From: Gluconobacter vitians
Lineage (GTDB): Bacteria > Pseudomonadota > Alphaproteobacteria > Acetobacterales > Acetobacteraceae
DNA: 33,703 bases
Direction of reading: 5' to 3'
NCBI RefSeq assembly: GCF_015244565.1
Contig: NZ_JABCQG010000022.1
Location: forward strand, 1 to 33,703
Positions within the stretch are counted from its first letter, which is position 1. The number at the start of each line of letters is the position of its first letter. A model generated the notes under the pieces. The model was not told the DNA's origin. It made no database searches and saw only the letters and a list, made by a program, of their open reading frames with translations. Below are positions 2,246 to 14,703 of this stretch, piece after piece. The position numbers and the translations under genes were made by a program.

Positions 2246-3013
2246 TCAGTCATGCAGCTGGAAGGCTGGAGTCAGGACTGCGCCGGTCGCTTCAATTTCC
2301 GAACGAATGGCCTTGGCCAGTTCCAGCGATCCCGGAGTATCGCTGTGTACCAGAATGGACTGTGCCCTCACTTCAAGCCGTGAGCCGACCGAAGTCGTGA
2401 CGGAGCCGTCCTCAAGGAACTGTCTGACACGTGCCCGGACGGCATCAAGATCGTGGATGACGGCACCGGGCTGGCCACGTGGCACAAGGGTACCGAGGCT
2501 TGTGTAGGCACGATCGGCGAGGAACAGGGTCTGGGCGCGGATGCAGGCTTTGTCAGCCGCACGCTCGGTAAGCTGTCCGGGCATGCAGAACACCGTCAGT
2601 TCCCTGTCCAGAGCCGCGATGGCACGGGCAAGCCGCAATGCGAGGCCTTCATCGGCATTGGCCATATTCCCGAAGGCGGCATGATAGCTGACATGGGTCA
2701 CGCGATGGCCGTGCAGGGCGGCAACGGCCTGAAGTGCTCCGATCTGGTAGACCATCATGGCTTCCATATCGGCATCCGAGATGGACATGGCGCGGCGACC
2801 AAATCCCATGAGATCGGGCAGGCCCGGATGTGCGCCAATCCCGACGCCCTTTTCCTTGGCGAGCTGAACGGTCCGGTTCATGATCGCGTAGTCACCGGCA
2901 TGGAAGCCACAGGCCACGTTTGCAGACGAGATGACATCCATCAGCCCGTCATCATCCGCGATCCGCCAGCGACCAAAGCCTTCGCCCATATCGGAATTAA
3001 GATCGATCTTCAT
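2246..3013 (-). CDS. pxpA: 5-oxoprolinase subunit PxpA (LamB/YcsF family)
   Basis: A 255-residue LamB/YcsF-family protein. Family landmarks are DLNSDMGEGFG at residues 4-14, ANVACGFHAGD at about 31-42 and GAHPGLPDLMGFGRRAM at about 58-75, which carry the conserved acidic and histidine residues. PxpA works with PxpB and PxpC in ATP-dependent opening of 5-oxo-L-proline (pyroglutamate) to glutamate in the cytoplasm. The length is normal. The ATG at 3013 overlaps the pxpC stop in an ATGA arrangement, so it is translationally coupled and last in pxpB-pxpC-pxpA. The function is inferred from family knowledge. The neighbouring biotin carboxylase genes leave open a different amide or lactam substrate. 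Confidence 0.9.
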   Translation of the reverse strand: MKIDLNSDMGEGFGRWRIADDDGLMDVISSANVACGFHAGDYAIMNRTVQLAKEKGVGIGAHPGLPDLMGFGRRAMSISDADMEAMMVYQIGALQAVAALHGHRVTHVSYHAAFGNMANADEGLALRLARAIAALDRELTVFCMPGQLTERAADKACIRAQTLFLADRAYTSLGTLVPRGQPGAVIHDLDAVRARVRQFLEDGSVTTSVGSRLEVRAQSILVHSDTPGSLELAKAIRSEIEATGAVLTPAFQLHD

Positions 3014-4014
3014 GCTTTGCCTCCGGATTTGACGCCGTTTCGTGACTGACAGGACGCGCGGTAATGGGCTACCATCAGGCGCAGGTCATCAAGGTAGTGG
3101 CTGATTGGCTGTTCGGCTTCAACACCGGCCTCGTGGCTGCATTCCACAAAGCGGATGGCTGTCCCGATCCGGGCCTGACCCAGGCGCCAGAGATCGGCTT
3201 CGATGACGGTTGCGATCCGCGGATAGCCGCCTGCGGTGTTGGCGTCTGCAAGCTGAACAATGGGTTCGCCGGCTGGCGGAACCTGCACGATCCCCGGAAT
3301 GATGCCATAGGAACGCAGTTCGATCCGATCATGCAAAGTCAAAGGCGCGCCACTGAGGCGATAACCGACACGGTTGCTCTGCGGCGTGATCCGCCAGGGA
3401 TGATTCCAGAAACGCTCGCGGGACTCCTCCGTAAAACGGGCATAATCCGTTCCGAGGATTGCGCGCAGGAGCACGGTTTTTTCTTCGCACGGTCTTGTAT
3501 CAAGGATGCGGGCAGGGGGGACAGCACCATAACCCGAGAGATGTCCGGTTGCAGGCTGCGTTACAAGCTCGTCCCCGGCTTCCAGAAACCGTCCTTCGAC
3601 GCCGCCGAAGCTGCCCCGAAGCTGCGTGCTGCGTGAGCCGAGCACAACAGGCACGTCAATACCGCCGCTCACACAGACATAGCCCCGGGCACCCTTTTTC
3701 GGGATACCAACCTGAAGAACCTGTCCGGGAGCGGCAGTCTCGACGGACCATGCAAGCACAGGCTTGCCGTCCAGTGTCAGCGGCGCATCAATACCTGTGA
3801 CAGCAAAACTGGTTGGTGTCTCGAACCGGATGACAAACGGGTAGGTCTGAAGTTCGATGCAGGCATCGCCCGGCTCATTGCCCAGAAGAATGTTCCCGAC
3901 TTTCAGGGCCAGAGGATCCATGACGCCTGAACTGCCGACACCGAGATTACGATATCCCGGGCGTCCCAGATCCTGAATCGTATTCAGCGGCGCGGTTTCG
4001 AGGATCGTGATCAC
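3010..4014 (-). CDS. pxpC: 5-oxoprolinase subunit PxpC / KipA-type carboxyltransferase homologue
   Basis: A 334-residue protein of the KipA / allophanate-hydrolase-subunit-2 family, also annotated as biotin-dependent carboxyltransferase. Landmarks are NTIQDLGRPGYRNLGVGSSG (N-terminus), GVMDPLAL, GNILLGNEPGDACIELQTYP, and SNRVGYRLSGAPL in the second half. It is homologous to half of the carboxyltransferase region of urea carboxylase and partners PxpB. It starts at GTG 4014, overlapping the pxpB stop by four bases (GTGA), and its own stop overlaps the pxpA start (ATGA). The three genes are therefore read as one unit. The length fits the family, and I see no missing key segment. Confidence 0.9.
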   Translation of the reverse strand: MITILETAPLNTIQDLGRPGYRNLGVGSSGVMDPLALKVGNILLGNEPGDACIELQTYPFVIRFETPTSFAVTGIDAPLTLDGKPVLAWSVETAAPGQVLQVGIPKKGARGYVCVSGGIDVPVVLGSRSTQLRGSFGGVEGRFLEAGDELVTQPATGHLSGYGAVPPARILDTRPCEEKTVLLRAILGTDYARFTEESRERFWNHPWRITPQSNRVGYRLSGAPLTLHDRIELRSYGIIPGIVQVPPAGEPIVQLADANTAGGYPRIATVIEADLWRLGQARIGTAIRFVECSHEAGVEAEQPISHYLDDLRLMVAHYRASCQSRNGVKSGGKA

Positions 4015-4706
4015 AGTTCGATGCTCTCCGGGTAAAAGCGGATACGATCGCCAATGGCAAAGAGGGAGGGGGAACTGCGATGCGGATCGAAAAGGCAGAT
4101 TTCCGTATAGCCGATGGAATTCCAGCCATTGGGGCCGGTCAGCGCGGAAATCCCGGCCTGCATCCCGCCGATTGTTACGGTTCCTGCCGGCATGTTGAGG
4201 GAGGGAACGGATTTCCGCGGCGTGGCGATGCGGGGATTAAGGCCGTGCAGATAGCCGAAACCCGGTGCGCTTCCCACGGCACAGACCGTGTATTCGCCCT
4301 CATGATGAAGCCGGATGACCTCTTCGGGAGACAGGCCGGTATGGGCGGAAACCGCCGCCAGATCGTCACCCAGCGCACCTCCGTACTGCACGCCCACTTC
4401 GAAGAGCCGTCCTTCGATCTGAAGGGGCGGGAGTGTCTCCCAGGCATTCCGGAGCCAGTCTGCGATCTGTTCCGGATGCTCGGGGGCATGGGTGAAGATC
4501 AGGAGCAGGTTCGTGACGCCGGGGACGAGTTCCTGAATGTCGGGGCGGTTTTCGGTATGGGCGATGAGGGCCCAGATCCGCTGCTGCTGCCGCATGGTGA
4601 ATTCGCCAGGGGCTTCGAACAGCATGGCGCGTGTGCCCATCATGCTGATGACCGGGGCGTTGGTGGCGTGATGCCGGTCCGGTGTGAGGAGCGTGTCTGC
4701 GGTCAA
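4011..4706 (-). CDS. pxpB: 5-oxoprolinase subunit PxpB / KipI-type protein
   Basis: A protein of about 231 residues of the KipI / allophanate-hydrolase-subunit-1 family, which pairs with PxpC. Landmarks are the N-terminal MMGTRAMLFEA, the central VGVQYGGALGDDLAAVSAHTGLS (family pattern: conserved Y-G-G, then D-L-x-x-V-A), and the C-terminal APGFGYLHGLNPRIATPR with PAGTVTIGGMQAGI. It is homologous to the other half of the urea-carboxylase carboxyltransferase region. The start is uncertain. The longest convincing frame begins at TTG 4706 with a weak ribosome site, and an internal ATG lies about 20 codons further in. It is the first gene of pxpBCA and faces away from the SDR-accB-accC operon. 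Confidence 0.87.
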   Translation of the reverse strand: MTADTLLTPDRHHATNAPVISMMGTRAMLFEAPGEFTMRQQQRIWALIAHTENRPDIQELVPGVTNLLLIFTHAPEHPEQIADWLRNAWETLPPLQIEGRLFEVGVQYGGALGDDLAAVSAHTGLSPEEVIRLHHEGEYTVCAVGSAPGFGYLHGLNPRIATPRKSVPSLNMPAGTVTIGGMQAGISALTGPNGWNSIGYTEICLFDPHRSSPSLFAIGDRIRFYPESIEL

Positions 4707-4826
4707 AACATGCAGTTCCCGGGCTGTGACGGTTCCGTCTCATGGTCTCAAAGCCGCTTTTGAGGCGGCAACGAAACGATATGACCGGTGCGCGGATGAT
4801 GACCAGAGCAATTCGGCGTTTGAGGG

Positions 4827-4886
4827 CATCGGATAATCTTATGGTTCTCAGGGGGCTAGCGAGGGTTCCATCGGATTATGTTATGG
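4827..4886. promoter_or_regulatory. Tandem 18-bp direct repeat in divergent promoter region
   Basis: CATCGGATAATCTTATGG (4827-4844) and CATCGGATTATGTTATGG (4869-4886) are 18-bp direct repeats with two mismatches. Their starts are 42 bp apart, four turns of B-DNA, so both face the same side of the helix. Each has CAT...ATG outer arms, giving partial dyad symmetry. They lie in the gap between the divergent pxpB and SDR genes (4707-5021), where a shared control site would be expected. No regulator gene is adjacent. The rest of the gap shows no gene. Confidence 0.5.
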
Positions 4887-5021
4887 GGCAAGAACGAACG
4901 GCTCTTGGTGTTTGTGAAATAACTCCATTAGCGTCGGAATAATACTCCTGCCGGATGTTCCGTATTTCATGCGGTGCTGATGGCGGTCTCTTCCTGTCCT
5001 CCAGCAATGGGTCTCACTCGC

Positions 5022-5777
5022 ATGAGCAATACTCCTTACCGCACCGCTCTCGTTACTGGCGCTTCTTCCGGCATCGGCGCTGCCATTGTTCGGCGGCTGA
5101 GCGAAAGCGGCATTGAAGTTCATGCCCTGGCCCGCGATGCGAAGCGCCTTGAGACACTGGCCAGCGAGACAGGCTGCATTCCCCATGCTGTCAGCGTGTC
5201 GGATCAGGCAGGGCTTGAGGCACTGATCGCCGGTCTGGAAGTGGACGTTCTGATCAACAATGCCGGCCAGTCCCGCACGGGCAACATCACGAAAACGACG
5301 CCTGAAGACATCGACGCTCTGGTGGACGTGAACCTGCGTGCCGTTCTGCAGCTGACGCGCTTGGTCGTGCCGGGAATGATCGAGCGGGACCGCGGGCACA
5401 TCGTGAACATCAGCTCCATTGCCGGTCACTATGCCTTTACAGGCGGCAATACGGTCTATCATGCAACGAAGGCCGGTGTGCATTCGCTGTCCCAGCAGCT
5501 GCGCTGTGATTTGTTCGGCCGTCACATCCGGGTGACGGAAGTCTCGCCGGCTCGTGTGGAAACCGAGGTCTTCGGCCGTCTGATCGGGGACATGGCCGAG
5601 GCGAAGAAGCGCTTCTTTGACGAGTATGAGTCCCTGCTTCCGGAAGACATTGCCAACTCGGTGGCGTTTGCGGTTCTGGCTCCCCAGCGCATGAATGTCA
5701 GCTTCATGGAAGTGCTGCCGACGATGCAGGTCGTGGGCGGTCTGAACTTTGCGAAGAAAACCTCTGATCCGGCCTGA
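5022..5777 (+). CDS. YdfG-like SDR, NADP-type 3-hydroxy acid dehydrogenase
   Basis: A 251-residue short-chain dehydrogenase. The nucleotide-binding motif TGASSGIG is at 12-19, NNAG at 79-82, and the catalytic pair is Y146 and K150. The C-terminal half (RVTEVSPARVETEVFG, LLPEDIANSVAF, MEVLPTMQVVGGLNF) follows the pattern of E. coli YdfG, an NADP-dependent 3-hydroxy acid dehydrogenase that also reduces malonic semialdehyde. ALARDAKRL after the second strand has arginines suited to NADP(H). I chose the ATG at 5022, where family similarity begins, although the open frame extends upstream. It is the first gene of a rightward operon, with the BCCP gene starting five bases after its stop. Its substrate in this pathway is unknown. 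Confidence 0.83.
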   Translation: MSNTPYRTALVTGASSGIGAAIVRRLSESGIEVHALARDAKRLETLASETGCIPHAVSVSDQAGLEALIAGLEVDVLINNAGQSRTGNITKTTPEDIDALVDVNLRAVLQLTRLVVPGMIERDRGHIVNISSIAGHYAFTGGNTVYHATKAGVHSLSQQLRCDLFGRHIRVTEVSPARVETEVFGRLIGDMAEAKKRFFDEYESLLPEDIANSVAFAVLAPQRMNVSFMEVLPTMQVVGGLNFAKKTSDPA

Positions 5778-5782
5778 TATCA

Positions 5783-6232
5783 GTGGATATCTCACAGATC
5801 AGACGCCTGATCGATCTCATGTCTCAGGCTCCGATTGCGGAGCTTGAGATTGAGGAAAATGGTCGGAAGATCCGCCTTGCGAAGGGCGGTGGAAAGACGG
5901 GTGTGTCGCCTGTGGCGGCCACTCCGGTTCCGGTAGAAGCAAAGGCCCCTGTTGCACCGGCGGCTCCATCGCCCATAGCGACAGCGCCCAAGGCAGCCGG
6001 GACCGTCATCACCGCGCCGTCCTACGGTGTCTTTCACCTCGCTCCGTCGCCGGATGCGCCGCCTTATGTCACTGTCGGCCAGAAGGTCGAGGCAGGGCAG
6101 CAGGTCGGGCTGCTTGAGGCCATGAAGGTTTTCAATCCGGTCCGCGCAACGGCTGCGGGCGTGGTTGAAGAGATCCTCGTGGCTGCCGGCACGGAAGTTG
6201 ACATGGGAACGCCTCTGTTCCGCCTGGTATGA
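5783..6232 (+). CDS. accB: Biotin carboxyl carrier protein (AccB-like, biotinylatable)
   Basis: A 149-residue BCCP. Residues 1-34 match the AccB N-terminal segment, followed by an Ala/Pro-rich linker (about 40-75) and a biotinyl domain (about 76-149). The biotin site is LLEAMKVFNP with K115; canonical AccB has EAMKMMN. The thumb-like insert seen in acetyl-CoA carboxylase BCCPs may be present (APSPDAPPYVTVGQKV). The protein carries carboxy-biotin between a biotin carboxylase and a carboxyltransferase. It starts at GTG 5783, five bases after the SDR stop, and overlaps accC by ATGA. No acetyl-CoA carboxyltransferase genes are near, whereas the urea-carboxylase-like pxpBC are. This copy may therefore serve a different carboxylase than fatty-acid synthesis. 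Confidence 0.88.
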   Translation: MDISQIRRLIDLMSQAPIAELEIEENGRKIRLAKGGGKTGVSPVAATPVPVEAKAPVAPAAPSPIATAPKAAGTVITAPSYGVFHLAPSPDAPPYVTVGQKVEAGQQVGLLEAMKVFNPVRATAAGVVEEILVAAGTEVDMGTPLFRLV

Positions 6233-7596
6233 GTGACATGCAGCGTTTCAAAAGAGTTCTGATTGCCAATCGCGGGGAAATTGCCCTGCGGATCCAGCGC
6301 GCCTGTCGTCAGCTTGGACTGGAGACGGTCGCGGTCTATTCGGAAGCGGATGCGGACAGCCGTCATGTTCATGAAGCGGATGTGGCGCTGTGTATCGGTC
6401 CGGCGGCAGCTTCCAAAAGCTACCTCGATATGGAAGGTCTGCTTCTTGCTGCGAAAGTGATGGAAGCGGGGGCCATTCATCCGGGATATGGCTTCCTTTC
6501 TGAAAATGCGGATTTTGCGGATGTGGTGGAAGCGGCCGGTCTGACCTTTGTCGGGCCTACAGGTGACTCCATCCGCATGATGGGCGACAAGATCACGGCA
6601 AAGCGGGCCATGCGCGACGCAGGTGTGCCCTGCGTGCCGGGGTCCGACGGGCCGTTGCCGTCTTCTGCGGAAGAGGTCCGGGCCATTGCGCTTGAGGTTG
6701 GCTTTCCGGTGATCGTCAAGGCGTCCGGTGGCGGCGGTGGCCGTGGCATGCGGGTCGTGCACAGTGTGGACGAACTGGATGATGCCGTGGCCCTGACGGC
6801 CAAGGAGGCCCAGCAGGCTTTTGGCAACTCGACGCTGTATCTTGAAAAATACATGCAGAAACCGCGCCATGTGGAAATCCAGGTCCTGTGTGACACGCAT
6901 GGAACCGCGCTATGGCTCGGGGCACGGGACTGTTCCCTGCAGCGGCGTCACCAGAAGGTTCTGGAAGAGGCACCGGCTCCCGGTATTCCGCCCGAAACGA
7001 TCGCCGAAATCGGGGAGCGCTGTGTTGAGGCCTGCCGCCAGATTGGCTATCGCGGGGCGGGGACGTTCGAGTTCCTGTATGAAGACGGGATCTTCGCGTT
7101 TATCGAGATGAATACCCGCGTGCAGGTCGAGCACCCCATTACGGAAGAGACGACCGGTATCGACATTGTGGCGCAGCAGCTTCGGATCGCGCAGGGTAAG
7201 ACGCTGGATCTGCGTCAGGAAGATATCCTGATGCAGGGCCATGCGATCGAATGCCGTCTGAATGCGGAAGATGCGGCAACGTTCATGCCGTCTCCGGGCA
7301 CGGTGACGCGGTGGGATCTGCCGGGTGGTCCGGGTATTCGCGTCGATACGCATGTGGTGAGCAACTATACGGTTCAGCCTTACTACGACTCCCTGATCGG
7401 CAAGATCATCAGCTATGGAGCAACGCGTGAACAGGCGATTGCCCGGATGCGGGTGGCGCTGGCCGAGATGCGGGTCGAGGGCATTTCGACCAATATCGCG
7501 CTGCATCAGGATCTGCTGGCTGACCCGCAGTTTCAGGAGGGTGGCGTCGATATCCACTATCTCGAGCGCTGGCTGGCAGAGAGGTCACCATCATGA
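6229..7596 (+). CDS. accC: Biotin carboxylase (AccC-like)
   Basis: A 455-residue biotin carboxylase of full family length that makes carboxy-biotin on BCCP from ATP and bicarbonate. Visible parts are the N-terminal domain with LIANRGEIALRI (11-22) and HPGYGFLSEN (84-93), and the ATP-grasp domain with the glycine-rich loop KASGGGGGRGM (164-174). The carboxylation site region EMNTRVQVEHPITEE has the catalytic arginine, and the C-terminal domain contains HAIECRLNAED. It overlaps the stop of accB (ATGA) and the start of the following gene (ATGA), so the three are coupled. The sequence shows no loss of active residues. Whether this is the housekeeping AccC or a second, dedicated copy cannot be told from the window. 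Confidence 0.92.
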   Translation: MSDMQRFKRVLIANRGEIALRIQRACRQLGLETVAVYSEADADSRHVHEADVALCIGPAAASKSYLDMEGLLLAAKVMEAGAIHPGYGFLSENADFADVVEAAGLTFVGPTGDSIRMMGDKITAKRAMRDAGVPCVPGSDGPLPSSAEEVRAIALEVGFPVIVKASGGGGGRGMRVVHSVDELDDAVALTAKEAQQAFGNSTLYLEKYMQKPRHVEIQVLCDTHGTALWLGARDCSLQRRHQKVLEEAPAPGIPPETIAEIGERCVEACRQIGYRGAGTFEFLYEDGIFAFIEMNTRVQVEHPITEETTGIDIVAQQLRIAQGKTLDLRQEDILMQGHAIECRLNAEDAATFMPSPGTVTRWDLPGGPGIRVDTHVVSNYTVQPYYDSLIGKIISYGATREQAIARMRVALAEMRVEGISTNIALHQDLLADPQFQEGGVDIHYLERWLAERSPS

Positions 7597-8036
7597 GCAC
7601 TGTGGAAAATCAGGTACCGGTGTTTCAAGGAATCCCGTCCTTAGACGATCTCGCACGGATTGCAGATCTGCTGGTTCAGGCTGGACTGGAGACGATCGAG
7701 CTTTCCGACGGCAAGGGCGCGCGGTGCTTTCTGCGTGTAGATGCTCCTGCTTCTGCATCCCATGTGCCGACTTCTGATGTCTCGCCGGCGCCTGCTGAGG
7801 CAATGCAGACTGATATTGCGGTCAAGACCCCTTATTTCGGAGTGCTGGCGCTGACGGATCTGGCGGAAATTGGAACGCTGGTGCGACAGGGCGATGTTGT
7901 GGCCCAGATGCGGATCGGAACCCTGCAGGTTCCGGTCACGGTTCCTGTCGAGGGAACGGTCGTGGAGGTTGTCGGGCAGGATGGTGTGCTGACCGGCTAT
8001 GGCGCCGTTGTCGTACGGATCGAGCCGACTGTCTGA
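7593..8036 (+). CDS. AccB-like carrier paralogue without the biotin lysine
   Basis: A 147-residue protein with the same layout as the AccB two genes upstream. It has an N-terminal helix-strand segment (about 15-49: SLDDLARIADLLVQAGLETI) and a short linker. A biotinyl/lipoyl-like domain follows (about 76-143), with YFGVLAL, GTLVRQGDVV and the second hammerhead VPVEGTVVEV. An ungapped match to AccB between G100 and G121 places T110 where K115 is in AccB, and EAMK is replaced by RIGT. There is no lysine in this domain beyond K78, so it cannot be biotinylated at the normal site. A structural or scaffold role, or holding a partner for PxpBC, is possible. The function is unknown. It is coupled to accC by ATGA and followed by a strong terminator. 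Confidence 0.75.
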   Translation: MSTVENQVPVFQGIPSLDDLARIADLLVQAGLETIELSDGKGARCFLRVDAPASASHVPTSDVSPAPAEAMQTDIAVKTPYFGVLALTDLAEIGTLVRQGDVVAQMRIGTLQVPVTVPVEGTVVEVVGQDGVLTGYGAVVVRIEPTV

Positions 8037-8098: not shown

Positions 8099-9300
8099 TC
8101 AGGTCAGGGATGCGATGAAATCTGCGATGCGGCGGCAACCTTCCTTCAGCGTTTCCCGGTCGGTCGCATAGGAAATGCGGAAGAACGGGCTCATGCCGTA
8201 AGCGCCGCCCTGGACGGATGCAACCTGCTTTTCTTCTAGAAGCGCCATGACGAAATCAGCGTCCGTCGCAAGGTGCCGGCCCTTGGGTGTGGTCTTGCCG
8301 AGGCAGGCACCGATCTCAGGATAGACATAGAAAGCGCCCTGCGGCGTGTGGCAGGTTACGCCGGGAATTTCGTTCAGCAGACCCACCACCAGATTACGAC
8401 GGGACTGGTATTCTGCGGCACGCTCCTTCAGGAAATCCTGCGGACCTTCCAGAGCGGCAATGGCAGCAGCCTGGGCGATAGTGTTGATGCCACTCGTTGA
8501 CTGTCCCTGCATGTTGTTCATGGCGGCGATCAGATCACGCGGCCCGCCGCAATAGCCAACACGCCAGCCGGTCATGGCATAGGCCTTGGAGACACCATTG
8601 ACCGTCAGCACGCGATCTTTCAGGCGGGGTTCGACTTCGGCGATGGTGCAGAACTCGAAATCGTCATAGATCAGATGCTCGTAAATGTCGTCCGTCATGA
8701 TCCAGACATGCGGATGCTTCAGGAGAACGGCCGCGATCTCTTCCATGTCCTCACGCGGGCAGCAGCGCCGGTCGGATTGTTGGGGAAGTTCAGCAGAAGC
8801 CATTTGGTTTTCGGCGTGATAGCCGCGTCCAGCGCCTTGGCGGACAGGCGGAAATTGTCCTCAGCTGGGCAGGGGACCTGCACCGGTTTTGCGCCGCACA
8901 GGCGGGCGATATCGGAATAGCTGATCCAGTAAGGGGAGGCGAGAACGACCTTGTCTCCTGCATTGCAGGTCGCCATTATGGCACCGAAAATGATCTGCTT
9001 GGCGCCATTGCCGACGAGGATTTCGTCCAGCGCATAGTCAAGATGGTTTTCCCGCAGGAACTTGGCCTGCACGGCCTTCTTGAGCGCGGGTTTGCCGTCC
9101 TGTGGCGGATATTTCGTATCACCACCACGCGCCGCAGCAATGGCAGCGTCCACGACACGGTCGGGGGTCGGAAAATCTGGCTCGCCGGAGGAAAGGCTGA
9201 CGATCTTCAGATCTTCCGCCTTGAGTTCGCGGGCCTTGTCCGTCATGGCGGCGGAGGCCGAAACTCCAATTCCGTTCAGTCGATCTGCAAAACCGGGCAT
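8099..9300 (-). pseudogene. aspC: Aspartate aminotransferase, frameshifted
   Basis: A class I PLP-dependent aminotransferase split between two frames. The first part (start ATG 9300) has SLSSGEPDFPTPD, YPPQDGKPALKKAV and the substrate-binding LNFPNNPTGA. The second carries DDIYEHLIYDDFEF, the PLP lysine region GVSKAYAMTGWRVGY and FRISYATDRETL. Frame is lost at 8761-8763, inside GCTGCTGCC. Adding one base would restore PTGA-A-CPRED and give exactly 400 residues, the family length; the present span of 1,202 bases is one short of a whole number of codons. Everything else is intact, so this is either a fresh one-base deletion or a sequence error. The enzyme makes aspartate from oxaloacetate and glutamate. 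It diverges from aspA across 235 bases with no gene. Confidence 0.88.
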
Positions 9301-9535
9301 CGATGGGTCTCCATTGCCGCATGGGTTAAGGGCGTGTGCGCGAATGGAGGTATCGTAAGTCGTTTCGATGGCGTCGAGATACTGCCGAAAATTGTCTGAC
9401 CCTATATCACAATCATATGGGGTTGAATCGAAGTCGCAATAATAGGCTCGGGCTCAGTCAGGAGTTGCGAGACTTCTGCAGATCCTTTTGGCGAAGGGTC
9501 GTACTCTGGTTCAATTACAGCTCTGGATATCCGAA

Positions 9536-11029
9536 ATGACGCCATCTGCACTCCAGTCAGACGCTCTGACCGACATGATGCCACAGCAGACGGATATGCC
9601 ACCACCAGCCGGTTTCCGCGTCGAGAAAGACCTGCTGGGAGACGTCAGAATTCCGGCGACGGCGCTGTGGGGCGTTCATACCAGCCGGGCTGCGGCGAAC
9701 TTTCCGATCAGCGGTGAAACGATTGGCGCTTTTCCCGAATTCATCCGCGCTTTCGTGACAGTCAAGCAGGCTGCGGCGCGCACGAACAGGGCGCTCGGAT
9801 ATCTGGATCAGAAGCGGGCCGACCTGATTGAGGCAGCCTGCGAGGCGCTGCTGAAGAGCGAGGACTATCGCGGCAGTTTCATCGTGGATGCCATGCAGGG
9901 TGGGGCGGGAACGTCCACCAACATGAACGTCAACGAAGTGATCGCCAATGTTGCGCTGGGACTGGCTGGAAAGAAACCCGGCGATTACCGCGTCCTGCAT
10001 CCGAATGACCATGTGAACATGGCGCAGTCCACCAATGACGTCTATCCCACGGCACTGAGGCTTGGCGTACTGGCCGCAACAGGGCCCTTGCTGGCTGCGC
10101 TGGAAGATCTTGCCTGCGCATTTGGGAAGAAAGCCGATGAGTTTGCCTCCATTCTGAAGGTCGGGCGAACGCAGTTGCGGGATGCCGTGCCCATGACGCT
10201 CGGGCAGGAATTCAGGGCCTTTCAGCATGCGGTCGAGACGGAAATCCGCCATATCAGGGATCAGTCCGCCACTTTCCTGACAGTCAATCTGGGAGGGACG
10301 GCGATCGGAACAGGGCTGAATACAGATTCGCGTTATGCGGACGCCGTTGTCGCAGAGCTTGGCAAGCTGACTGGTCTGGCTGTAGCGGGAGCCGCGGACA
10401 GGATCGAGGCGACTTCGGACGTTGGGGCTTTCGTCCTGTTTTCGGGTGTTCTTAAAAGGCTTGCGCTCAAGCTGTCCAAGATTTCGAACGATCTGCGCCT
10501 GCTTTCCAGCGGGCCACGTGCGGGTATTGGCGAAATTACGCTGCCCGCCGTGCAGGCGGGATCGTCGATCATGCCTGGGAAGATCAATCCGGTCATTCCG
10601 GAGGCCGTCAATCAGGTAGCGTATCTCGTTGCAGGGTATGATGTGACACTCAGCATGTGTGCCGAAGGCGGGCAGTTTCAACTCAATCCGTTTGAGCCTA
10701 TGATCGGATACTGCCTGTTCTCGTCTCTGAAAACGCTGACCTCGGCCGTGACGCTGCTGACGACGAAATGCGTTGCCGGCATCGCCGCGGATGCCGATCA
10801 GTGCCGTTACCTGTTCGAGCGCAACATTGGCATTGTCACCGCGCTCGTGCCCGTACTGGGCTACGACACGTGCTCGCAGATTGCCCGACGGGCCCTGTCG
10901 GAGAACCGGACGGTCTCCGAACTCGTGCTTCAGGAAAAACTGCTGTCCGAGACAGAGCTTGGCCATCTGTTGCGGCCTGAATTCCTGACGCAGCCCAATG
11001 TCGGAAGGACGAGTGCGGGCGCTATGTAG
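9536..11029 (+). CDS. aspA: Aspartate ammonia-lyase (aspartase)
   Basis: An intact aspartase/fumarase-superfamily enzyme, 497 residues from ATG 9536, converting L-aspartate to fumarate and ammonia. Diagnostic stretches are GGAGTSTNMNVNEVIAN, LHPNDHVNMAQSTNDVYPTA, VGRTQLRDAVPMTLGQEF and the mobile signature loop GSSIMPGKINPVIPE. The pattern is that of aspartase rather than fumarase. The frame is open further upstream to a TTG, but family similarity starts with GFRVEKDLLGD at about residue 27. I therefore prefer ATG 9536, and ATG 9575 is possible. It is divergent from aspC and ends overlapping by eight bases with the convergent lysR pseudogene. With aspC broken it could also work in reverse to make aspartate, which is speculation. 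Confidence 0.92.
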   Translation: MTPSALQSDALTDMMPQQTDMPPPAGFRVEKDLLGDVRIPATALWGVHTSRAAANFPISGETIGAFPEFIRAFVTVKQAAARTNRALGYLDQKRADLIEAACEALLKSEDYRGSFIVDAMQGGAGTSTNMNVNEVIANVALGLAGKKPGDYRVLHPNDHVNMAQSTNDVYPTALRLGVLAATGPLLAALEDLACAFGKKADEFASILKVGRTQLRDAVPMTLGQEFRAFQHAVETEIRHIRDQSATFLTVNLGGTAIGTGLNTDSRYADAVVAELGKLTGLAVAGAADRIEATSDVGAFVLFSGVLKRLALKLSKISNDLRLLSSGPRAGIGEITLPAVQAGSSIMPGKINPVIPEAVNQVAYLVAGYDVTLSMCAEGGQFQLNPFEPMIGYCLFSSLKTLTSAVTLLTTKCVAGIAADADQCRYLFERNIGIVTALVPVLGYDTCSQIARRALSENRTVSELVLQEKLLSETELGHLLRPEFLTQPNVGRTSAGAM

Positions 11030-11969
11030 TTGGGTGCGTTCCGGGCCAGTTGTGCGACGACGCCATGGTCCGGGCGAGGTCGATCAGACGTTCCCGCACC
11101 GCAACCGAGGCCTCGGTTTCAGGCACGAGTTCCGGAATGCAGAGCGAGACGTTCTCGCTGATGACCGGATTGCGCAGGGCATAGATCCGGGATTTGCCCT
11201 CAACGGCGATCCGGCTGGCGACAGACCAGGGAAGGATGGTGCTGCCAATCCCTTCCTGAATCGCACCCTGGAGCGTTGTCAGGGCTTCGATTTCCGCGAC
11301 GATGGTCGGCTCCAGTCCTTTGCGCATGAAGGCCATGTCGATGGCCTTGCGGACAAAGTTGTGTTTCGGAGGGACCAGAAGCGGAATATCCGTAACGTCT
11401 GCAAGCTGGACCGCATCGTCGTTGTCGTGAGGGATCTCAAGCGCATGGGGGGCGAGGAGGAAGAACTCTTCCTTCATCAGCGGCGTGAAGCTGACGCCTT
11501 TCATGGGGCCGGAACCATGAATGACCGCCATATCCAGACGGCCGGTCATGACGAGCTCACTATAGATGTCGTCAAAGCTCTCGGTCAGATGCAGGATGAT
11601 GCCCGGGAGATCCGCGCGGATGCGGCGCAGAAGCTCAACAGACAGCGTGGAACCAGCGCTGTAGGGAGAAAGGCCTACGGAGACCTTGCCGACAAGTGGA
11701 CCATCGCCCTGCGTGATCTCGACCATGGCCCGGTCGAACTGCTTGCTCAGGATCTGGACATGGCGGTAGAGGACGGATCCGGCGATGGTCGGGGTAACAC
11801 CGCTCTTGCTGCGGATCACCAGCTTCTGGCGGAACGCACTTTCAAGCGCTGCGAGCTGCTGGCTGAGTGCTGGCTAGGCGATGTTCAGCAGGTCGGCAGC
11901 GCGTGAAATGCTGCCGAGGTCAATGATCTTCACGAAGGCCTGCAGACGCCTGATATCCAACTGATCCAT
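11022..11969 (-). pseudogene. LysR-family regulator with amber codon near start
   Basis: A LysR-type regulator that would be 315 residues long from ATG 11969. The N-terminal helix-turn-helix reads LQAFVKIIDLGSISRAADLL and then NIA, a TAG stop at 11874-11876 (codon 32), then PALSQQLAALE. A CAG glutamine at that position is almost invariant in the family (IAQPALSQQ), so a single C-to-T change explains the stop. The rest is an open, normal effector-binding domain resembling Nac/Cbl-like proteins. Internal initiation would give a protein without most of the DNA-binding domain. It lies convergent to aspA and divergent from the TonB-dependent receptor gene (259-bp gap). It may once have controlled aspartate metabolism or the receptor. 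Confidence 0.87.
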
Positions 11970-12228: not shown

Positions 12229-14703
12229 ATGTTGATTGGGTCAAATTGGAAACTCTGTCTGGTCGCAAGTGCTGCACTGGGCGCATTCATGCCGGATATC
12301 GTTCTTGCTGCGTCGACTGCAGCATCCGAGCCGGTAAAACACCACAAGGTCATCAAGAAGAGTGCGAACGCTGCTCCTGTGCGGAGTAAAGCGCCGGTCC
12401 ATCGCGCTCCGACGTCGCTTCAGGCTGAAGCAACTGAAAGTATCCGCGTTGGTGGACGACAGACGAACTCCGTCTTCTCACCAGTAACGGCACGTCACAG
12501 CACGACGCAGGTGACCGTGGTGACGGGCGCTGAGCTTCTGAAAACGGGTCAGACCAACGTCCTGTCCGCTCTGGCGCAGGCCAACCCTGCGATCACGACC
12601 GCAGCTCTGCCGGGCGGTGGTGCAAGCGCGTTTGTCCAGACAATGCAGCTTCGCGGACAGTCTCCGGACGATACACTGATCCTCGTCAACGGCCATCGCC
12701 GCCATATCGGTGCGAACTTCAATTCCAATGCCGGTACGAACTGGGGCAGTGAGCCGAGCGATATTTCGCTGATTCCTGTCTCTGCCATTGATCATATCGA
12801 AGTCATCACGGAAGGGGCTTCGGCGCTGTACGGGCAGGATGCCATTGCAGGCGCGGTCAATATCGTGCTCAAGCGCGATACGCATGGCGGCAGCATCAAC
12901 TTCAAGAACAGCGGTTATTATGCCGGTGACGGTCAGGGGCTTGATGGCTCGGCCAATTATGGCATGGCCCTGGGCAATAACGGCGGGTATCTCGACCTTG
13001 CGGCTCAGGTGACGCATCAGCTTCCCACGACGCGTGGTGGTGATTTCTACGGCACGCTGTTCAGTGATTCCCGCAACGAGACCGCGAACCGCGACGTTCA
13101 GCGCGGGCTTGGCATTCCGAAATCCACGCTTGAAACCCTGAGCGAGAACATGTCGCTCCCGCTGGGGCATGGGTTCAGCGCCTACAGCACATCCACGTTC
13201 TCGCACCGCCGCGCCAATGTGGCCGAGACGTATCGGAGTGCTGCGGACTCGGATATGTGGATCAATACCGATCTGTATCCCAACGGCAACCAGCCCTACA
13301 TCACGATGGATCAGTACGACTTTGAGACGGATAATGGCATCCGCACTCACAAGTTCGGTTTCGCATGGGATGCGTATGTGACCTTCGGGCGCGATGCGCA
13401 GAAATACGGCACCAAGGATTCCGAGAACGTCTCCCTCCCGGACAGCACCCAGACCTCATTCTATGATGGTTCCTCCATCGCAACCGAACTGACAAGCGGC
13501 ATTCGTGGATCACGCTCCTTTCATACAGGTCTGCTGCCACGGCCGATCGATCTGAAGTTCGGTGCGGAATACCGGCATGACACGTTCCAGATGACGGAAG
13601 GTGAGACCGCATCATGGGAAGGGCTGGGCGCCACTGACCATCCGGGTAACGTTCCGATGGCTGTGACCAACCAGAACCGCGATGTCTATGAAGGTTTCGC
13701 CAATCTCGATTTCTATCTGACCAAGAAGTGGGAATGGACGCTGGGTGGGCGTGTTGCCAGCTACAACAATTTGGCGACTGTTGAGACCGGATCCGTCGGT
13801 ACCCGATACAACTTCACCAAGCGCTGGGCTGTGCGCGCCAACATCAATTCGGGCTATCGTCCACCGACGCTGGGCGAGATGTCCTATTTCTATTCGGCGC
13901 CTTATCCTGGCTATACGGTCGATCAGGTCCCGGCCAACAGCACGATTGCCAAGTATCTTGGCTCGGGCAGCATGAAGGGCGAGTATTCCCGCAGCTACAG
14001 CATCGGGCTTGATGCGACGCCGGTGAATGATTTCCATGTGACGGGGAATCTTTATTACATCGCCATCAATTCCCGCCTGGGAAGCACCAAGACCTATAAC
14101 GTGAACACGAATGATTCCGTGCTCATGAACCTGCTCGCACAGAACAATCTTGAGAGCGCGACGTCACTGTCCTATTACGCCAACCTCTACAACACCCAGA
14201 CTTTCGGTGGTGATTTCAGCGCCGATTATACACTGCATACGCAGCACCTGGGTCAGTTCCGGTTTGCAATGGGCATCAACTTTTCTGATACGGAAATCCG
14301 TTCGGCAAGAGAGAATTTCGTCAACGAGTACACCAAGCAGGTCGTGCTGCACTCGGCGCCGAAGAACCGTGAGCAGATCAGCGTGAACTGGACCTATGGC
14401 AAGTGGTCGGTGTTCGTGCAGGAAATGCGTTACGGCTCGATCATCTACATGGCAGCACCGACAGGTCCGGGCAGTGTGCCGTTCATGCAGAATCCGGCGC
14501 TGCTGACCAATCTTGAAGTGGACTACAAGATCATACCCCGCTGGACGATCGGTGTGGGCGACAACAACATCGGCAACAAGTATCCGACGCGTGTTCCGTC
14601 CTCGATCTCCAACACGCAGCAGGGCCTGTCGAAGTACGCCTCATACTCGCCCTACGGCTTCAACGGCGGAATGTATTACGTGAAGACTTCGATCAACTTC
14701 TGA
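12229..14703 (+). CDS. TonB-dependent outer-membrane receptor
   Basis: An 824-residue TonB-dependent receptor with an N-terminal signal peptide ending near IVLAAS (about residues 1-28). A basic, Ala-rich spacer leads to ESIRVGGR, a possible TonB box. The plug domain (about 85-225) contains QVTVVTGAELLKTGQTNVLSAL, the MQLRGQSPDDTLILVNGHR region and EGASALYGQDAIAGAVNIVL. The 22-stranded barrel ends in YYVKTSINF with a terminal phenylalanine, as needed for outer-membrane assembly. The substrate is not readable from sequence. It starts at ATG 12229 with GAGGG upstream. It stands alone, with a hairpin after it and a secreted phospholipase gene 217 bases downstream. Confidence 0.9.
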   Translation: MLIGSNWKLCLVASAALGAFMPDIVLAASTAASEPVKHHKVIKKSANAAPVRSKAPVHRAPTSLQAEATESIRVGGRQTNSVFSPVTARHSTTQVTVVTGAELLKTGQTNVLSALAQANPAITTAALPGGGASAFVQTMQLRGQSPDDTLILVNGHRRHIGANFNSNAGTNWGSEPSDISLIPVSAIDHIEVITEGASALYGQDAIAGAVNIVLKRDTHGGSINFKNSGYYAGDGQGLDGSANYGMALGNNGGYLDLAAQVTHQLPTTRGGDFYGTLFSDSRNETANRDVQRGLGIPKSTLETLSENMSLPLGHGFSAYSTSTFSHRRANVAETYRSAADSDMWINTDLYPNGNQPYITMDQYDFETDNGIRTHKFGFAWDAYVTFGRDAQKYGTKDSENVSLPDSTQTSFYDGSSIATELTSGIRGSRSFHTGLLPRPIDLKFGAEYRHDTFQMTEGETASWEGLGATDHPGNVPMAVTNQNRDVYEGFANLDFYLTKKWEWTLGGRVASYNNLATVETGSVGTRYNFTKRWAVRANINSGYRPPTLGEMSYFYSAPYPGYTVDQVPANSTIAKYLGSGSMKGEYSRSYSIGLDATPVNDFHVTGNLYYIAINSRLGSTKTYNVNTNDSVLMNLLAQNNLESATSLSYYANLYNTQTFGGDFSADYTLHTQHLGQFRFAMGINFSDTEIRSARENFVNEYTKQVVLHSAPKNREQISVNWTYGKWSVFVQEMRYGSIIYMAAPTGPGSVPFMQNPALLTNLEVDYKIIPRWTIGVGDNNIGNKYPTRVPSSISNTQQGLSKYASYSPYGFNGGMYYVKTSINF

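Follow-up and report, generated by a model that had tools for sequence, protein, structure and literature searches.

The PxpA, PxpB and PxpC proteins of Escherichia coli (YbgJKL) are said, since Niehaus 2017, to form a 5-oxoprolinase, and how PxpABC uses ATP is, to our knowledge, unsettled. Urea carboxylase and urea amidolyase (from Kluyveromyces lactis, PDB 3va7 and 5i8i, and from bacteria, our loci L174-L176) combine a biotin carboxylase (BC), carboxyltransferase (CT) domains of the A/B and C/D kinds and a biotin carboxyl carrier protein (BCCP) in a single chain. The acetyl-CoA carboxylase of plant plastids, which serves fatty-acid synthesis, contains BADC subunits that are related to BCCP, lack the biotin motif and are partners of BC-BCCP; a 2025 paper calls them unique to the plant enzyme (PMC11926652). 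Here we describe a locus (positions 2246..8036) in a 33,703-nt stretch of Gluconobacter vitians DNA, which as a whole we call the window, where homologues of PxpA, PxpB and PxpC (Pfam, NCBIfam) are encoded together, beside a BC, a BCCP and a second carrier that lacks the biotin lysine. Acetic acid bacteria and rhizobia share this gene set of a lactam-opening enzyme, its own biotin carboxylase and a non-biotin carrier, and the conserved set suggests a biotin-driven opening of small ring-shaped amino-acid derivatives.

The locus consists of a minus-strand run, pxpB-pxpC-pxpA (4706 to 2246), and a divergent plus-strand run, SDR-BCCP-BC-second carrier (5022 to 8036), where SDR denotes a short-chain dehydrogenase/reductase. 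By the coordinates of the open reading frames (ORFs), four junctions overlap by 4 bp (PxpC/PxpA, PxpB/PxpC, BCCP/BC and BC/second carrier) and the gap between SDR and BCCP is 5 bp. An earlier note on this DNA had described two tight runs lying back to back, and we recovered its seven ORFs at the same positions. The features are as follows.

2246..3013, minus strand: PxpA, a LamB/YcsF-family protein predicted to be the ring-opening hydrolase subunit (Pfam LamB_YcsF PF03746, 298 bits)
3010..4014, minus strand: PxpC, KipA-type CT_A_B protein, GTG start (Pfam CT_A_B, 293 bits)
4011..4706, minus strand: PxpB, KipI-type CT_C_D protein, TTG start, Arg at the position of Lys1605 of urea carboxylase (Pfam CT_C_D, 206 bits)
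4707..5021, no strand: intergenic region separating the two divergent transcription units
5022..5777, plus strand: SDR (Pfam adh_short, 155 bits; the ORF as reported begins at GTG 4974)
5783..6232, plus strand: BCCP with the biotin site LLEAMKVFNP (Pfam Biotin_lipoyl, 63 bits)
6229..7596, plus strand: BC, AccC-like (Pfam Biotin_carb_N, CPSase_L_D2 and Biotin_carb_C, 147, 256 and 131 bits)
7593..8036, plus strand: second carrier ('pBCCP') with a biotinyl-domain fold but no biotin lysine (Pfam Biotin_lipoyl, 20.0 bits, under the cut-off of 22.1)
8099..9300, minus strand: aspartate-transaminase-like gene of PRK06107 type in two frames, a conserved neighbour in relatives

The gene names proposed in the earlier note agree with Pfam and NCBIfam, apart from the label 'YdfG-like' for the SDR, which falls far under the cut-off of the YdfG model (162.5 against 411 bits in NCBIfam), this being simply the nearest model; ATG 5022 appears the more likely SDR start than GTG 4974. 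In NCBIfam, PxpA belongs to the PxpA subfamily NF003814 (327 bits, cut-off 226), PxpB to TIGR00370 (184 bits, cut-off 145.6) and PxpC to the domain model TIGR00724 (294 bits, cut-off 230), while PxpC stays below the equivalog PxpC_5OPro, NF045499 (300 bits, cut-off 500). The AlphaFold model of PxpC matches E. coli YbgK (5dud_A, TMt 0.88), and its closest named relative among the matches listed is the Gluconobacter roseus copy, with 97% identity. BCCP and BC score above the equivalog cut-offs of TIGR00531 (117.8 against 115.2 bits) and of the accC model TIGR00514 (665 against 626.5 bits), respectively, which indicates sequence family and not function. BC also carries a glycine-rich loop and EMNTR-QVEH motifs, which we take to be BC motifs. 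Judging from their sequences, BC and BCCP look intact and are presumably active.

The earlier note had recognised the second carrier as a carrier-like protein, and it is indeed a biotinyl-domain protein, but the missing biotin lysine had been overlooked: the second carrier reads MRIGTLQV where BCCP has LLEAMKVF. Its predicted model has the biotinyl-domain fold and is a close match to BCCP, and no NCBIfam model matched it at E ≤ 0.001. The biotin-acceptor lysine was found in 0/86 aligned second carriers, none of which has a lysine at that column or within two positions of it. The E-x-M-K motif served both to assign rows to BCCP or second carrier and to name the carrier queries, so that the presence of the lysine in 84/84 BCCP rows is true by construction; BLAST best hit and motif class agree for all 180 carrier ORFs. 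The second carrier is under purifying selection comparable to that on the true BCCP. A second-carrier profile matches 347 of the 385 genomes of the class and scores the genome's own true BCCP as well, so it shows homology to BCCP and gives no census of second carriers. Searching plasmids with the second carrier as query gave no match, and among the papers found none, judged by title and abstract, describes this cluster or a bacterial biotin-less BCCP.

To follow the locus in relatives, we used the best 80 of at least 535 confirmed PxpC relatives, taken from named genomes and biased towards close ones; 38 of these loci are from acetic acid bacteria (Gluconobacter, Komagataeibacter, Novacetimonas, Gluconacetobacter and Acetobacter) and 42 from others. 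All six core genes are present in 70 of the 80, and an SDR scoring >150 bits in 63 of these 70 complete loci. The two halves of the set differ in arrangement: PxpB and BC are divergent in 35/35 complete loci of acetic acid bacteria, whereas BC and PxpC lie on one strand in 35/35 complete loci outside them (34 with rhizobial names and Roseococcus, L130, now in Roseomonadaceae). The order in the one-strand loci is BCCP-BC-second carrier-PxpB-PxpC-PxpA, with a different order in L130. Among the ten incomplete loci, five are cut (L077 and L097 by contig ends, L110, L119 and L134 by the edge of the stretch), three have PxpBC alone (L102, L129, L133), PxpA was not detected in one (L104), and the last, L121, is taken up below. 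A second sample took 150 genomes of the window's own family, 25 of which gave a second-carrier match (E ≤ 0.001); 20 neighbourhoods were fetched, five genomes including the window's own being left out: seven hold divergent seven-gene sets, five hold the six core genes in other orders, one (L050) lacks PxpBC, one is cut and six are other carboxylases. The genome of L050 has no PxpC match elsewhere, and some ORFs flanking L050 resemble transposases by eye.

The neighbourhood is thus kept in relatives and extends beyond Acetobacteraceae, and the proposal of the earlier note that these genes form one linked module stands. Its condition for a chance link, that this be the only accBC pair in the genome and the neighbourhood not be kept in relatives, fails on both counts. 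In the assembly (3.16 Mb, 93 contigs) we found three full-length stand-alone BC genes, each with an adjacent BCCP, in the window, on contig C15 and on contig C28, which rules out that the window pair is the sole one. The C15 pair lies beside aroQ and is taken as the housekeeping pair, so the window BC is not the only BC of the cell; accA of acetyl-CoA carboxylase is located elsewhere in the genome. The C28 genes form a paralogous cluster with pxpB, pxpC, pxpA, BCCP, BC and second carrier all on one strand (40, 45, 42, 34, 59 and 29% identical to those of the window, respectively), and PxpC and PxpA matches in this genome are confined to these two clusters. A neighbourhood assembled by chance, with no functional link among the genes, would suit the patchy distribution of the system, since two genomes of the same genus have no match to PxpC or to the second carrier, although the PxpC query does match the window's own genome. 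We give this reading practically no credence, because the conservation of all six core genes in 70 of 80 related loci, in two different arrangements and with a paralogous copy in the same genome, rules it out.

We also sampled 150 genomes of the phylum, 45 of which gave a CT_A_B match (62 matches); after leaving out the two own clusters, 19 frames of urea-carboxylase length and one partial match (G218), 40 neighbourhoods were fetched. BC is adjacent in 12 of the 40, and the pairing of BC with PxpBC is therefore fairly common. It takes three architectures. In type I (L180, L181, L183), PxpA-BCCP-BC-PxpB-PxpC, parts that the window also has, form one run; these loci differ from the window in having a short BCCP and a Lys at the 1605 position discussed below, and in that no second carrier or transaminase was detected in them. 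They are perhaps of the Pseudomonas aeruginosa PA0492-PA0496 type, and may be true amide carboxylases. Type II, the architecture of the window, is marked by the biotin-less carrier and includes L179 and L199; L193 has a doubtful carrier 1.4 kb away, outside the 86 aligned rows, which is perhaps of another kind because it reads SK where BCCP has MK. In type III (six loci), BC and BCCP share one frame, and PxpB and PxpC form one long frame in 5/6. An apparent BCCP upstream of PxpB in L223 was discarded, as it forms the terminal part of a longer protein, by eye similar to an oxaloacetate decarboxylase.

From these data, the chances seem to us about even that the seven genes and the neighbouring transaminase make up one catabolic module, a BC-powered hydrolase for an amino-acid lactam. 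BC would use ATP and bicarbonate to carboxylate the biotin of the true BCCP. The second carrier, which could not itself be biotinylated, may be a fixed structural link between BC/BCCP and the carboxyltransferase-fold pair of PxpB and PxpC, a role modelled by analogy on that of plant BADC towards BC-BCCP; the likeness lies in the predicted fold and the missing lysine. In the PxpBC site, carboxybiotin would then activate the lactam, whether by N-carboxylation or by a comparable transfer of the carboxy group; PxpA would hydrolyse the activated ring to the amino acid with loss of CO2. The transaminase, together with a CHA/HMG-type aldolase in rhizobia, would degrade this amino acid to 2-oxo acids. 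In a fuller version, carboxybiotin from the dedicated BC/BCCP would prepare a substituted 5-oxoproline for PxpA by activating its ring nitrogen, the BADC-like, biotin-less carrier would be the obligatory subunit linking the carboxylase half to the KipI/KipA-type half, and in enterobacteria the same adaptor would connect the system to the housekeeping AccBC; we put this forward tentatively, as possible but short of probable. The earlier note had proposed a biotin-dependent carboxylase/hydrolase for a lactam or amide, and a biotin-dependent hydrolase stays our leading, though hypothetical, reading; strict biotin dependence is put in doubt by relatives that lack BC.

Two further known systems come close to this one. 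The Aspergillus genes lamA and lamB serve the use of 2-pyrrolidinone, LamB belonging to the PxpA family and LamA resembling urea amidolyase, and they may be a fused counterpart of the module. PDB entry 9yx5, according to its listing, contains AccA3 (BC-BCCP) together with KipI/KipA, named 'allophanate hydrolase subunits 1 and 2', and by that listing is a precedent for the pairing; its organism is probably Mycobacterium smegmatis, judging from sister entries and 3mml. The entry is like our locus in bringing a biotin carboxylase/BCCP protein and a KipI/KipA pair together, and unlike it in that, as far as the listing goes, BC and BCCP are fused, AccA3 is listed in acyl-CoA carboxylase entries as well, and no PxpA match is present. 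Another paper describes AccA3 as shared among mycobacterial acyl-CoA carboxylases (PMC11001197).

The neighbouring genes point to an amino acid as the product, and not to the semialdehyde or 3-hydroxy acid that the earlier note had suggested in connection with the SDR. The PRK06107-type 'aspartate transaminase' gene, which scores below the equivalog cut-off, is found in 79 of the 80 loci and in two of the three type II loci of the random phylum sample, but in none of the 28 PxpC loci without BC, the nine type I and III loci or the 13 further E. coli-like loci. LysR regulators occur in 72/80 loci, and among the 42 loci outside acetic acid bacteria, an RraA-fold gene occurs in 35 and a gene for a family-3 amino-acid-binding protein in 33. 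Two RraA-fold representatives score 222 and 221 bits (cut-off 179) against one 4-carboxy-4-hydroxy-2-oxoadipate aldolase model. With a transaminase, an aldolase-type gene and an amino-acid importer as neighbours, our best guess at the substrate is a ring-substituted 5-oxoproline: a 4-hydroxylated 5-oxoproline would suit a route that imports the compound, opens its lactam, transaminates the product and ends in an aldol cleavage. On gene context and general biochemistry, 4-hydroxy- or 4-hydroxy-4-methyl-5-oxoproline would yield pyruvate and glyoxylate or a second pyruvate. In the window itself, the transaminase is split into overlapping frames, 8105-8791 and 8767-9300; that of G. roseus (L064) gives one continuous match, and the split is a frameshift or an assembly error. 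Beyond the transaminase lie an aspartate ammonia-lyase-like gene (9488-11029, plus strand) and a LysR-type regulator (11022-11819, minus strand).

All the parts of urea carboxylase, BC, CT and BCCP, are present in the locus as separate proteins, and the earlier note had accordingly spoken of a split urea carboxylase-like system. In K. lactis urea carboxylase, Lys1605 is the probable CT base (PMC5770610); in the PDB sequence it is the lysine within TKYNPSRT, and we checked its position against the 5i8i numbering. At this column, Lys occurs in 3/3 urea carboxylases and 3/3 type I PxpB, and Arg in 32/32 type II, in 6/6 type III and in 29/29 PxpB without adjacent BC, that of E. coli included. The combination of Gly-Gly at PxpB 180-181 and a small amino acid at PxpC 258 is, by contrast, common to type II (32/32), type I (3/3) and urea carboxylase (3/3); among the 29 rows without BC, three have it (E. 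coli, L188, L202), and none of the six type III rows does. If the system were a genuine split carboxylase acting on urea or on some other small amide, with PxpBC making a stable N-carboxylated product that PxpA hydrolyses in the manner of allophanate hydrolase, these shared residues and the domain set would be explained. This reading would also fit the matches of the urea carboxylase equivalog TIGR02712 to BC, PxpC and BCCP, although these parts reach 495, 160 and 29 bits against a cut-off of 1303.85. We nevertheless regard this explanation as improbable: Lys1605 is lost in type II and kept in type I clusters only, urea carboxylase has no PxpA or second-carrier part, the transaminase and aldolase-type neighbours are unsuited to urea, and type II PxpBC branches apart from urea carboxylase, in a clade with E. 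coli-type PxpBC (support 0.997 with 34 tips and 0.999 with 50 tips). Because Lys1605 is Arg and PxpBC is nearest to the E. coli 5-oxoprolinase, we rejected 'split urea carboxylase' as a label.

We also searched with E. coli PxpC; of its 28 matches, 17 loci were added, six were not fetched and five were already in the set. The E. coli side of the PxpBC tree then comprised 16 tips (support 0.543), with BC in L193 alone. The position of L193 beside E. coli had hinted at descent of E. coli PxpABC from a BC-linked ancestor; the 17 further loci weakened that idea, and an independent gain of BC in L193 is simpler because it is the sole BC carrier among the 16 tips. In the BC tree, the four BC taken as housekeeping within the window's family form a separate clade (support 0.999, bootstrap 100), and the type II BC share one clade with gamma-proteobacterial-type AccC (bootstrap 100), in which type II by itself reaches a bootstrap of 70. 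By this tree, the dedicated BC did not arise through recent copying of the family's AccC. Monophyly of type II BC (28/28, 0.996) was weakened on adding four gamma-proteobacterial-type AccC, since the L193 BC then joins them (0.721; bootstrap 85) and a clade of 27 type II BC with L237 is left (FastTree support 0.938, bootstrap 70).

Several observations weigh against a module powered by BC, and they suit an explanation that we consider unlikely though by no means negligible: PxpABC would work without biotin as in E. coli, and BC/BCCP would be an additional, co-regulated carboxylase half, used by a different carboxyltransferase or raising acetyl-CoA carboxylase activity while the pathway runs. 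Among characterised systems, E. coli PxpABC is the nearest relative; it shares the three Pxp homologues with the window, its PxpBC being in the sister group, and differs in that the 7-kb stretch around it has no adjacent BC, nor BCCP, second carrier, SDR, transaminase or aldolase. Co-purified PxpB and PxpC are reported to hydrolyse ATP (PMC8453981), and the fold may therefore not need BC. The Arg at the Lys1605 position of type II PxpB is common to PxpB without adjacent BC. L121, on an Agrobacterium vitis plasmid, has BCCP, second carrier, PxpB, PxpC, PxpA and SDR but no BC in its usual place. Two enterobacterial loci, L227 and L228, from the same family as the E. coli-like genomes, have PxpBC that nest among type II (a node of 15 tips, support 0.997) and keep PxpABC, transaminase, LysR, SDR and a second-carrier-like protein (3263-3637 in L227, 12350-12724 in L228), yet no BC or BCCP lies within 16 kb. 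As to the pathway, the RraA-fold and amino-acid-binding protein genes also occur near 2/28 and 2/28 PxpC loci without BC, and the two RraA-fold representatives miss the narrower TIGR02798 (192 and 190 against 304.5).

A biotin-free PxpABC would, however, leave several findings without a ready place: BC, BCCP and second carrier accompany PxpABC in 70/80 loci and share its strand in the 35 complete ones that are not from acetic acid bacteria; three different architectures pair BC with PxpBC; and 9yx5, by its listing, holds BC-BCCP with KipI/KipA. The L227 and L228 genomes each have one stand-alone BC, beside a BCCP, in addition to proteins of urea-carboxylase length. Either these loci borrow AccBC, in the way that AccA3 is shared in mycobacteria, or they can do without biotin, in which case the second carrier would have some other function. 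The same loci bear on a further alternative, in which the second carrier inhibits BC-BCCP or controls its dosage and is not an assembly factor. Its predicted fold is close to that of BCCP, and plant BADC has also been proposed as an inhibitor (PMC11926652); among the 70 complete loci, the second carrier adjoins BC in 69, which fits either role. We find this alternative very doubtful, since a mere brake on BC-BCCP is unlikely to be kept in L227 and L228 with no BC or BCCP nearby.

A PxpABC version with its own biotin carboxylase, as in our leading reading, offers a chemical answer to the question of ATP use, namely activation by carboxylation. The biotin-less carrier, if it behaves as proposed, would be a bacterial counterpart of plant BADC in a catabolic enzyme and not in a fatty-acid enzyme. 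In such clusters, genes with 'acetyl-CoA carboxylase' scores from family models probably serve another enzyme. New here are the second carrier as a biotinyl-domain protein without the biotin lysine, the link to the transaminase, and the rhizobial aldolase-type gene with the amino-acid importer.

Beside the paralogous C28 cluster, we noticed a HyuA/HyuB pair (L011 1171-4829, minus strand) whose nearest models are caprolactamase CapA/CapB, with scores well under the cut-offs (502 and 152 bits; cut-offs 1000). An ORF in between looks by eye like a MarR-type regulator, with no NCBIfam match. Two different lactamase-type systems adjoin in this region. A TonB-dependent receptor-like ORF lies near both own clusters (window 12229-14703, plus strand; L011 11415-13928, minus strand), and relatives of the C28 receptor (>150 bits) are found in 19 of the 38 acetic-acid-bacterial loci.

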